From NCBI RefSeq assembly GCF_018100795.1, contig NZ_JAGJDY010000004.1, positions 248,001 to 312,000 on the forward strand: DNA of 64,000 bases, read 5' to 3'. Numbering within the stretch: position 1 is the first letter of the stretch; each line of letters starts with the position of its first letter. Source of the stretch: Alteromonas sp. MMG017 (GTDB taxonomy: Bacteria > Pseudomonadota > Gammaproteobacteria > Enterobacterales > Alteromonadaceae). The notes beneath the pieces were generated by a model. That model made no database searches. It saw nothing but the letters and a program-made list of their open reading frames with translations, and had not been told where the DNA came from. The position numbers were made by a program, and so were the translations under genes. Below, one piece after another: positions 10,015 through 13,012 of this stretch.

Positions 10015-11613
10015 ATGCAAACACCAAAACCCATTAAACGTGCTCTATTAAGTGTCTCTGATAAAACCGGTATCCTCGATTTCGCCACCGCGCTGCATAA
10101 CGCTGGGGTAGAACTTCTGTCGACGGGCGGTACTGCTAAACTCATCGCTGAAGCTGGCTTACCAGTAACAGAGGTGTCTGATCACACAGGCCACCCAGAA
10201 ATTATGGCTGGCCGCGTTAAAACCCTTCACCCTAAAATTCATGGCGGCATTTTGGCTCGTCGTGGTATTGATGAAGCGGTAATGGACGAAAACAACATTG
10301 CTCCCATCGATTTGGTGGTAGTGAACCTTTACCCATTTGCTGCAACAGTGGCTAACGACGATTGCACGTTAGAAGACGCTATTGAAAATATCGATATTGG
10401 CGGCCCTACCATGGTTCGCGCTGCGGCTAAAAACCATAAAGATGTGACCATTGTTGTTAAAGCTGCCGACTACGGCCGCGTTCTAGCTGAGATGGAAGCA
10501 AACGAAGGTTCACTGACTTACAAAACCCGTTTCGACCTAGCCATTAAAGCGTTCGAGCATACTGCTGAATACGACGGCATGATTGCTAACTACTTTGGCG
10601 CGCGTATCGATACTGCTGATTGCGAAGATGAATGCGGCCATGAGCACAGCGAATTCCCACGTACGTTCAACGTTCAAGTCAGCAAGAAGCAAGATTTGCG
10701 TTACGGTGAAAACAGCCATCAGAGCGCTGCGTTTTACGTTGAAAACGATATTCAAGAAGCGTCAGTGTCTACTGCCACTCAGCTTCAAGGTAAAGAATTG
10801 TCGTTCAATAATATTGCCGACACCGACTCAGCCCTAGAATGTGTTAAAGAATTTGAAGAGCCAGCTTGCGTTATTGTTAAGCACGCTAACCCTTGTGGTG
10901 TCGCTATTGGCGAAGATATCTTATCTGCCTACGACCGCGCGTTTAAAACCGACCCTACCTCTGCGTTTGGCGGCATTATTGCGTTTAACCGTGAGCTAGA
11001 TGCAAAAACGGCACAAGCCATTGTAGATCGTCAGTTCGTAGAAGTGATTATTGCACCTACGGTTAGCGACGAAGCAAAAGACATTGTTAGCGCGAAGAAA
11101 AACGTACGCTTATTAGCGTGTGGTGATTGGGCTGGTCAACTGACTGACGGTTACGACTTCAAACGTGTTAATGGCGGGCTGTTAGTTCAAGAGCGCGACT
11201 TCGGCATGGTTGAAATGGAAGACCTTCAAGTAGTCACCAAACTTAAGCCTTCAGAAGACGAACTTCGCGATTTGATGTTCTGCTGGAAAGTAGCGAAATA
11301 CGTGAAATCTAACGCCATTGTTTACTGCAAAGACGGTATGACAGTAGGTGTGGGTGCAGGTCAAATGAGCCGCGTATATTCTGCTAAAATTGCAGGCATT
11401 AAAGCCGCTGATGAAAACCTAGAAGTTGCAGGCTCTGTAATGGCATCTGACGCTTTCTTCCCATTCCGCGATGGCATTGATGCTGCCGCAGAAGCTGGCA
11501 TTAAAGCCGTCATTCAGCCTGGTGGCTCAATGCGCGACCAAGAAGTGATTGATGCAGCCGACGAACACGGCATCGCCATGGTGTTCACCGGAATGCGCCA
11601 CTTCCGCCATTAA
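10015..11613 (+). CDS. purH: Bifunctional AICAR transformylase / IMP cyclohydrolase
   Basis: PurH carries out the last two steps of IMP synthesis: formylation of AICAR and ring closure of FAICAR. The 532-residue product has the N-terminal MGS-like IMP cyclohydrolase domain ([26 protein letters not shown], about residues 1-200) and the C-terminal transformylase domain, which holds [10 protein letters not shown] and [12 protein letters not shown]. Length agrees with the E. coli enzyme. It starts 33 bases after the fis terminator. In related bacteria purD follows directly; here 580 bases of repeats and a methyltransferase-like gene come between. Confidence 0.97.
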
Positions 11614-11630
11614 TTGGGCGTAGACAACTT

Positions 11631-11736
11631 GAGGGGAAGCAAATACCAGTACTAAACACGCCGTAAACCCATCCATGGGGGCTCCGCGGCGGCATCCTTG
11701 CCGCAGAGGGTTTAGTACTGGCATTCACTTCCCCTC
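11631..11736. repeat. Branched inverted repeat, copy A
   Basis: Two 27-base arms (11631-11657 and 11710-11736) are inverted complements with three mismatches and enclose a 52-base core. The core can form two hairpins, CCCAT-CC-ATGGG and a GCGGC-rich stem capped by the same ATCC-type loop, so the whole element can fold as a three-way junction. The core aligns over its full length with that of copy B in inverse orientation (41 of 52 identical by hand count). The outer arms of A and B are unrelated in their inner 11 bases. Confidence 0.8.
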
Positions 11737-11804
11737 TTTTGATATCTAGGTTCTACAGTTGCAGTTGAATAAAAGTGCGGTAAACGCTAAAAACTCATAC
11801 TATA

Positions 11805-11851
11805 GAAGGCATTCAAAACCCTCCACAGCATGAATGCTGCAACAAAGTGCC
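11805..11851. repeat. Decayed branched repeat, copy C
   Basis: The 47 bases from GAAGGCATTC match the left arm and first hairpin of copy B in the same orientation, with scattered changes. The hairpin arm CCACAGCAT is kept but its partner is altered, and no second arm can be found. This appears to be a truncated, decaying copy. Confidence 0.65.
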
Positions 11852-11921
11852 AAAGTCGTGGTGTACTGCGCTTGCAAATAATTTTGATCTCGAATTTAAA
11901 AAGCATGACGCCGGTTGATAG

Positions 11922-12025
11922 GAGTGAGAGCAGAAGGCATTCGAAACCTTCCACAGCATGGATGCTGTGGCAGAGCGCCCATGGATGGGTTTACCGCGTG
12001 TTTTGAATGCCTTCTGCTCTCGCTC
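11922..12025. repeat. Branched inverted repeat, copy B
   Basis: Two 26-base arms (11922-11947 and 12000-12025) are complementary except at two positions, and include a perfect 17-bp stem (GAGAGCAGAAGGCATTC and its complement). The 52-base core contains the perfect hairpin CCACAGCAT-GG-ATGCTGTGG and the hairpin CCCAT-GG-ATGGG. It is copy A in opposite orientation with different outer arms. Confidence 0.8.
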
Positions 12026-12196
12026 TTCGCTTTGAGCTCTAAGCCATAAAAAGCAAAACGGCAGAGTACAGATTTAGCATGTTGGGTGTCGGGTAGGTAT
12101 CATAGTTTGTTGATAAGCTTAATCTGAAACTGGTGTTTATCAGTATTAGCAGTTAACGTAATCGCCGTTACCCTCGATGATAATAAGGAAATAACA

Positions 12197-13012
12197 ATGA
12201 AGAAGTTAGCCACATTAGTACTCGCAGCAACACTTGGCATGTCAGCAACCTATGCTAGCGCCGATGCTATATCAGATGCTGCCATGAGCGAACACCGCTC
12301 AGCAAAAGCCAAAGTACGTGACGAATTCCGTAATCCTCAACAAACGCTGCGATTCTTTGGTGTTAAGCCAAACATGACAGTAGTAGAAATTGCGCCGGGT
12401 GGCGGCTGGTATGCCGACATTATTGCGCCTTTGGTTCAAAAAGAAGGCCAGTATATTGCTGCTCACTTCTTCGTTGACGAATCGACCAACGATTATTACC
12501 GCAAATCACTAGAAAACTTCAATCAAAAAGTAAAAGACAGCGCCCCATATCAAGGCGTGAAAGTTACTGCTTTCCACCCAACTAAAGCCCTTGATATTGC
12601 AGAGCCTGGCAGTGCCGATGTGGTACTTACCTTCCGTAATATTCATAATTGGTACATGGGGCAAGGTACTGAAGGTATCGATAACGCATTCGGCGCTTTC
12701 TTCAAAGCCCTTAAGCCAGGCGGCGTGTTGGGTGTGGTAGAACATGAATTACCAGAATCTGCTGACGACTCAGCAATGGAAAAAAGTGGTTACATGAAGC
12801 GCTCTTTCGTGGTTGCTGCCGCGGAAAAAGCAGGCTTTGAGCTTGAAGAAGCAAGTGATATTAATGCAAACGCTAGAGACACTGCTGATCATCCACGCGG
12901 TGTATGGACGCTTCCTCCTAGCCTAAGATTAAAAGATGTAGATCGTGAGAAGTACCTTGCCATTGGTGAGAGTAATCGCATGACACTTAAATTCGTAAAA
13001 CCTAAGTCGTAA
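12197..13012 (+). CDS. Secreted class I SAM-dependent methyltransferase-like protein
   Basis: The 271-residue product begins with a clear signal peptide (MKKLATLVLAATLGMSATYA, cleavage near residue 22). The mature part has a Rossmann-type methyltransferase fold: motif I as VVEIAPGGGWYADIIAPL at about residues 61-78, an acidic stretch around DIAEPGSADVVLTFRN, and a late ALKPGGVLGVVEHE strand. Such proteins are grouped as predicted methyltransferases with a leader (COG4798-like). SAM is not known to be common in the periplasm, so the true reaction and site of action are unclear. The gene has a good ribosome-binding site (AAGGAAAT), follows the repeat region and ends 27 bases before purD, with which it may be co-transcribed. 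Confidence 0.8.
   Translation: MKKLATLVLAATLGMSATYASADAISDAAMSEHRSAKAKVRDEFRNPQQTLRFFGVKPNMTVVEIAPGGGWYADIIAPLVQKEGQYIAAHFFVDESTNDYYRKSLENFNQKVKDSAPYQGVKVTAFHPTKALDIAEPGSADVVLTFRNIHNWYMGQGTEGIDNAFGAFFKALKPGGVLGVVEHELPESADDSAMEKSGYMKRSFVVAAAEKAGFELEEASDINANARDTADHPRGVWTLPPSLRLKDVDREKYLAIGESNRMTLKFVKPKS

Follow-up and report, generated by a model that had tools for sequence, protein, structure and literature searches.

ERIC and other bacterial MITEs are about 70-300 bp long and have ends that are conserved between copies. As given in excerpts of the respective sources, the site consensus of RsmE is (A/U)CANGGANG(U/A) (PMC6692469), and the SELEX consensus of CsrA is RUACARGGAUGU, with the selected ligands mostly having stems no longer than four pairs (PMC7652899). 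Sites separated by 10-63 nt are bridged by a CsrA dimer, the stated optimum being 18 nt or more (excerpts of PMC4894983 and PMC7652899). The repeat described here lies behind purH in a 64,000-nucleotide stretch of the Alteromonas sp. MMG017 genome, the whole of which is referred to below as the window. It belongs to a widespread family which, with confidence somewhat above even, is regarded as selected as a folded single strand, namely as an RNA with two CsrA/RsmA sites that perhaps serves as a dispersed decoy.

According to the original prediction, two intact copies in opposite orientation and a decayed third follow purH, each intact copy having a 52-nt core, with 41 of 52 positions identical between the two, enclosed by long, well-paired arms that are specific to the copy. 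Alignment bore this out in every detail checked, and the repeats are not a local matter (Table 1). Copy A extends in full from 11631 to 11736 (GGA strand minus) and copy B from 11922 to 12025 (GGA strand plus), with arms of 27 nt and 26 nt that are 89% and 92% complementary, respectively. The cores differ at 11 positions, eight of which form four fully compensated pairs (the compensatory G-C/A-T changes foreseen in the larger hairpin are two of these four); another pair accounts for two more (T·C in copy A, C-G in copy B), and the one remaining difference falls on the free N in the first CANGGANG apex. Copy C matches B as a 67-nt direct repeat, 76% identical at a spacing of 128, and has GAA in place of GGA in loop 1. 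A 17-mer across hairpin 2 has two exact occurrences in the window versus 0.09 expected with up to three mismatches allowed. A 65-aa ORF also runs across copy A; the peptide-coding reading of this ORF was set aside because the stems covary.

Table 1. Features of the repeat cluster behind purH and of its neighbours, in window coordinates
Feature	Position	Strand	Protein family match
purH, upstream neighbour (context)	10015..11613	+	TIGR00355
Copy A, outer arm adjoining purH (3' arm on GGA strand)	11631..11657	-	
Copy A, two-hairpin core of 52 nt; GGA on the minus strand	11658..11709	-	
Copy A, hairpin 2 apex CATGGATG (CANGGANG)	11670..11677	-	
Copy A, hairpin 1 apex CAAGGATG (CANGGANG)	11693..11700	-	
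Copy A, second outer arm (5' arm on GGA strand)	11710..11736	-	
Copy C, decayed (tandem duplication of B); 5' arm retained, CATGAATG in loop 1, no loop 2	11804..11871	+	
Copy B, 5' outer arm	11922..11947	+	
Copy B, 52-nt core with two hairpins	11948..11999	+	
Copy B, hairpin 1 apex CATGGATG	11957..11964	+	
Copy B, hairpin 2 apex CATGGATG	11980..11987	+	
Copy B, 3' outer arm	12000..12025	+	
Downstream ORF, "methyltransferase-like" in the original prediction (context)	12197..13012	+	no NCBIfam match at E<=0.001

A covariance model (R1) built from 16 intact copies of the window genome gives 33 matches in that genome at E<=0.1, and a BLAST search with copy B as query gives 32, some of which are self-matches of the arms. 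Searched across relatives, the core proved to belong to a family that is not confined to the window and that keeps paired arms and compensatory changes elsewhere. Matches occur in 28 of 60 genomes and 7 of 25 genera of the genus and order (own genome included) and, at E<=1e-4, in 47 of 276 genomes (own included) and 42 of 216 genera of a class-wide sample, in which 14 candidate places were scored per genome, so that per-genome counts are lower bounds; an exact-pattern scan of 84,980 species genomes returned at least 119 stretches. Among the matches listed are Stenotrophomonas, Xanthomonas, Halomonas, Marinobacter, Saccharospirillum, Idiomarina, Rheinheimera, Shewanella, Vibrio, and Microbulbifer, all of which we take to be gammaproteobacteria, besides other genera; an alphaproteobacterial match (L139) looks like chance, judged by its fold. 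Copy numbers can be large, with 105 R1 matches at E<=0.01 in S. maltophilia D457, 119 in S. maltophilia SJTL3, 150 in X. euroxanthea (all candidates scored), and 113 in M. azerbaijanicus. The copies are chromosomal and mostly intergenic: a single weak match was returned among 72,556 plasmids, only with the second of two queries, and none to copy B (one query) among phages. Copy B has no blastn match in E. coli, although CsrA is present there. No Rfam family reaches its gathering threshold on any window copy or, tRNA aside, at 20 further loci, and the Rfam matches near copies A and B (two miRNA families and Ysr224), all far below gathering, were dismissed as chance. In the open literature, neither an earlier description of the family nor a link of CsrA to dispersed repeats was found among the matches listed, and six 15-16-nt stretches of hairpin 2 yielded no occurrence in full-text literature.

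Several arrangements seen in relatives may be recorded here. At the purH locus of G010 (L121), three tandem model matches lie 128-129 nt apart and score 104, 74, and 49 bits, and the same locus in G077 (L123), which belongs to the species of the window genome, holds a broken copy B, with one strong and two weak model matches. In other species of the genus (L125, L128, L130-L132, L135, L136), purH is followed by a simpler hairpin with a stem near AAACACGCAGTAAAG/CTTTACTGCGTGTTT similar to one end of the family core. The L031 site in G077, G010, G033, and G080 (L334, L336-L338) shows matches to several partial copies in tandem. In S. maltophilia SJTL3 (L298 18925-19439; L278-L286), many loci share a composite module, some 500 bp long, in which inverted copy pairs are embedded; the module is bounded by GCAACAGC-type runs and contains further palindromic repeats between them.

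The GGA strand folds into a three-way junction composed of an outer stem and the two hairpins of the 52-nt core. Hairpin 1 usually has a stem of seven or eight pairs. In 90 copies kept from loci not chosen by loop pattern, it has near its foot a T that stays unpaired (89 of 90) and faces C or T (89 of 90), the spacer between the hairpins has an A in 90 of 90, and the 3' side of hairpin 2 bears a TTYAC bulge (T 85, T 89, Y 87, A 83, and C 89 of 90). Ungapped measurement of the outer stem in 191 copies gives a median length of 26 pairs and a maximum of 39; in 47 copies it measures fewer than 10, either because the copy has decayed or because an indel has merely shifted the register, the copies beside acnD discussed below being an example of the latter. 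The stem sequence is private to each copy, and the arms in S. maltophilia form subfamilies within one genome. Some copies (15 of 191) have a symmetric GNA/GNA internal loop in the arms, within a range of 4-8 pairs from the core and chiefly at 5 or 6 pairs (at arm position 6, 8 seen versus 1.5 expected), and others have tandem G·A pairs in hairpin 1.

That the structure is under selection, as the original prediction had suggested, is strongly supported by the 16 copies, by the wider set of hits, and by two orthologous sites. Across the 16 window-genome copies, 95.2% of 604 cells pair, versus 66.6% in shuffles and at most 44.5% in slid controls, and 30 of 38 pairs have changed on both sides; in 122 distinct rows of model hits, a set fitted to the model that includes weak, truncated, and some reverse-strand self matches, 94.8% pair versus 61.4% when shuffled. 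Because covariation among copies could reflect how the copies arise, orthologous sites were examined as well. In six genomes of the genus, represented by stretches L341-L346 of about 4.6-4.9 kb each, one copy lies on the 5' side of prpC, and acnD is followed on its 3' side by one copy or two. NCBIfam identified the genes in L344, and motifs identified them in the remaining five; the copies bracketing the operon lie about 4.1-4.4 kb apart. On the prpC side, 98.7% of 234 cells pair and 13 pairs have changed on both sides (shuffle mean 5.7, with none of 500 shuffles as high), and on the acnD side, in seven rows, 90.7% of 182 cells pair and 14 pairs have changed on both sides (shuffle mean 5.6).

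These sites bear directly on a proposal also contained in the original prediction, namely that a mobile element makes the arms by copying its target flank in inverted form. Such an origin would account for arms that are unrelated between most copies and nevertheless well paired, but the arms at the prpC site diverge stepwise through compensatory changes and wobble intermediates across the six genomes, a likely orthologue of copy A in G025 has related arms that retain their pairing, and the arm subfamilies of S. maltophilia are found within one genome. As arms at fixed orthologous sites diverge by compensation, it is the structure that is selected, and a copied flank is not needed; the search for a clean recent insertion with a readable empty site found none. 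Inverted flank copying thus gains no support and is considered very improbable.

Orthologous sites also reveal that whole copies are exchanged. Site L033 is occupied by one of two distinct cassettes, in opposite orientations, in six genomes whose flanks are 90-99% identical (three genomes each); four more distant genomes carry an element in the orientation of the window genome, and six carry none (16 of 20 searched genomes). The two cassettes demonstrate exchange but do not reveal how arms arise. Within the S. maltophilia group, the unit of arms plus core found at an orthologous site differs between genomes. Element-free sites exist, with flanks too diverged for the junctions to be read. At sites of the S. 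maltophilia genus without the module, the genomes are about 80% identical, and two sites cannot be aligned across the junction. The acnD-side copy has its GGA strand along the operon in all six genomes, and the prpC-side copy has it opposite prpC in five genomes and along prpC in G029. Any orientation rule is blurred because recombination shuffles the copies, and the arms differ between copies because of both drift by paired changes and whole-copy exchange by recombination.

Which form of the nucleic acid is selected can be approached through the mismatches in the arms, which were counted strand-symmetrically in 191 unique copies out of 265 hits (duplicates and hits without ANGGA-N18-ANGGA were left out). 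Arms read on the GGA strand contain 151 G·T versus 30 A·C in 3971 cells (p 1e-20), and by copy, 72 lean towards G·T versus 13 towards A·C. While R1 itself could favour G·U, arm positions from 21 outward lie beyond the modelled pairs, and there the count is 50 versus 5; two subsets of copies give 62:11 and 89:19, and the asymmetry is alike in copies that are sense (37:7) and antisense (38:7) to both neighbours. At the prpC site, the 26 arm pairs yield 18 G·T cells without a single A·C, and at the acnD site the asymmetry is weaker, at 14 versus 7, many cells sharing descent at both sites. The excess of G·T over A·C on the GGA strand indicates that one strand is selected, not the duplex. A DNA cruciform, which the original prediction had offered beside RNA, or another double-stranded signal without strand preference, would suit the near-palindromic arms and the inverted copy pairs; symmetry of the two mismatches would then be expected, however, instead of the fivefold excess of G·T over A·C that one strand shows, and the unpaired bases conserved on the GGA strand (e.g., the TTYAC bulge) likewise speak against this reading, which is hardly credible. 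Strand asymmetry does not tell RNA from single-stranded DNA, and a strand-biased mutation process could possibly set the GGA strand apart in the same way.

A strand-specific mobile element of single-stranded DNA, operating in the manner of REP/RAYT, IS200/IS605, or attC with a trans-acting enzyme that recognises the loops, is the leading rival; the likeness to CsrA sites would then be coincidental. Such an element would explain why copies are dispersed and come in pairs and tandem arrays, why they lie in both orientations relative to genes with a wobble asymmetry independent of gene direction, and why exchange and opposite orientations are found at orthologous sites. A nearby Y1 transposase (TnpA/RAYT), raised as a possible companion in the original prediction, was looked for, and none of 20 loci (20 of 27 Y1 matches, 22 genome handles) has a copy within 1.5 kb at E<=0.01. 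Furthermore, Y1_Tnp is absent from 7 of the 22 genome handles, or from 6 of 21 distinct genomes given that G033 and G085 are the same genome, and these hold 7 to 31 copies. One weak model match beside a Y1 gene (14.6 bits, E 0.26, in S. maltophilia) sits on another repeat, a GGGGTCAGATCC hairpin of unrelated sequence, and identity of the family with the self-complementary TIR family was rejected on this ground; a TIR family of that kind has been described in S. maltophilia (excerpt of PMC3733652). In S. maltophilia D457 (L261 1295-2494), several copies of a self-complementary 41-bp repeat (GGGGTCAGATCCC...GGGATCTGACCCC) flank a Y1 transposase gene. The scarcity of plasmid hits and the lack of phage hits noted above, together with resident copies that keep paired arms at fixed sites over species, also run counter to a single-stranded DNA element, which is judged unlikely while retaining an appreciable share of the probability.

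The reading as an RNA with CsrA/RsmA sites draws on the loops. Both apexes read CANGGANG, matching the published CsrA/RsmA hexaloop site. Among 103 folds with exactly two hairpins, from model hits at loci not chosen by loop pattern, A.GGA occurs in both loops in 80, in one in 15, and in neither in 8, a class that includes reverse-strand self matches. The closing bases, which were not forced, are C in 88 and 90 and G in 89 and 90 of 90 copies, and the first N in the same 90 copies varies in both loop 1 (T 69, G 12, A 8, C 1) and loop 2 (T 68, G 14, A 6, C 2). The ANGGA motifs are 18 nt apart (20 nt between the GGAs) in 183 of 265 hits and 17 or 19 nt apart in 35, another spacing being found in 18 and no pair in 29. 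To judge from sequence, both loop identity and two-site spacing agree with those of a CsrA/RsmA-binding RNA. The gene csrA was detected in 46 of 47 copy-bearing genomes versus 196 of 229 others (one-sided p 0.010, relatedness being ignored); the remaining copy-bearing genome, the draft G279, has no csrA by two models, and two genomes of its family are positive. Loop integrity is higher in sense than in antisense copies (47 of 48 versus 59 of 71, p 0.014; at loci not chosen by loop pattern, 13 of 13 versus 34 of 44, p 0.096), a difference that is not relied upon in the conclusion. In G077, half of hairpin 1 of copy B and, at site L033, the GGA of loop 2 have been lost, so that single copies are dispensable. 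These losses count against the CsrA reading, as do the failure to detect csrA in G279, the lack of a copy B match in E. coli, hairpin 1 stems that are usually longer than those of most SELEX ligands, the weaker asymmetry on the acnD side, a wobble asymmetry that is alike in sense and antisense copies, and the findings on orientation, terminators, and promoters given below.

If the GGA strand is transcribed, the resulting RNA would form the three-way junction, the long outer stem of which would need pairing only, and its two CANGGANG apexes, usually with 18 nt between the ANGGA motifs, would constitute a ready two-site ligand for one CsrA/RsmA dimer. Transcription through the element, whatever its source, might then yield an RNA that titrates CsrA or is protected by it, and many copies could jointly act as a dispersed CsrA buffer. 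We infer from the fold, the loops, and their spacing that the selected single strand is probably RNA, that it would bind CsrA, and that titration would be the effect.

The genomic setting of the copies invites another RNA-based explanation, i.e., a structured element at mRNA 3' ends that acts by protecting transcripts or by stalling polymerase, its loops serving some other protein or no protein at all. Copies often start 13-50 nt past a stop codon, and their very stable folds would suit such a role. With our own ORF caller, 136 intergenic copies with callable neighbours comprise 36 sense, 52 antisense, 37 convergent, and only 11 divergent ones; of the 191 copies, another 9 fall within long ORFs and 46 lack callable neighbours. 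An earlier round of ORF calling, which put 91 of 176 copies inside ORFs, many of them spurious, was replaced by this better gene caller. Among the 136 copies there is, however, no excess of the sense orientation behind genes, and across 187 copies no T-tract follows the 3' arm; nor would an element of this kind explain the conserved CANGGANG with its variable N and the usual 18-nt spacing. It is therefore considered improbable, albeit less so than inverted flank copying. On the preferred reading, antisense copies would need antisense transcription. Promoter scores are slightly higher upstream than downstream of the copies (7.14 versus 6.87, p 0.0007); this signal is not directed towards the element (p 0.37) and does not rise in 76 low-GC copies. 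In the window, no terminator-like site was found in 11580-12210, and the two promoter-like sites (0.9 expected) both lie at 12074-12128, behind copy B. With no terminator and no directed promoter signal, the element is unlike an sRNA gene of the CsrB kind.

A more far-reaching formulation of the preferred reading, which is put forward tentatively and with less than even confidence, is that of a CsrA-ligand repeat family: selection on the folded RNA would maintain dozens to more than 100 two-site decoys per genome across gammaproteobacteria, and these would spread and be exchanged as selfish repeats are, setting the level of free CsrA through their copy number and the transcription of their neighbourhoods. 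Were the copies to bind CsrA, a large class of intergenic palindromes would become a distributed part of a global regulator, and CsrA titration would be a function of genome-wide repeat copy number. This would bear on lineages such as Xanthomonas, for which one excerpted source reports a failure to find homologues of the classical CsrA antagonists (PMC7694677). Should the selected strand instead be single-stranded DNA, the family would represent an abundant mobile element with no known enzyme, awaiting a match to one. Either way, the strand-specific wobble excess provides a handle on what selects a dispersed bacterial repeat.

MITEs have conserved ends, in contrast to the variable outer arms and conserved centre seen here, and conserved terminal inverted repeats of the MITE type are absent from the family, its outer arms being copy-specific. 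ERIC and other MITEs share with it an intergenic location and foldability as RNA (background in part in PMC3733652). The REP/BIME repeats, tagged GTAG or CGTC, and the TIR repeats of TIRYT genes are likewise short, dispersed, mostly intergenic palindromes behind genes and often form inverted pairs, as does the family; REPs are, however, single hairpins of 20-40 bp with GTAG/CGTC tags (excerpts of PMC3733652), whereas the element described here is about 100 nt long and three-way, and no RAYT lies beside its copies in the loci tested.

Among RNAs, the family shares GGA hairpin loops of the CANGGANG consensus with CsrB, CsrC, RsmX/Y/Z, RsmU (Xanthomonas), and Pf1-3 (Pseudoalteromonas), and like these CsrA-sequestering RNAs it has two or more sites whose spacing would suit a CsrA dimer. 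Such RNAs are encoded by one to few genes per genome, whereas the family consists of dozens to more than 100 short dispersed copies with two sites each. Pf2 and Pf3 have a promoter and a terminator (excerpt of PMC11882849), unlike the family copies, which have no terminator, no clear promoter, and no Rfam match at gathering. RsmU, which in the excerpted text is reported only from Xanthomonas, derives from an mRNA with a predicted ComEA product, by processing of its 3' UTR (PMC7694677). The Campylobacter jejuni flaA leader titrates CsrA through two neighbouring CANGGANG-like hexaloops spaced 21 nt apart (excerpt of PMC4894983), and what is there part of an mRNA leader is here a repeat.
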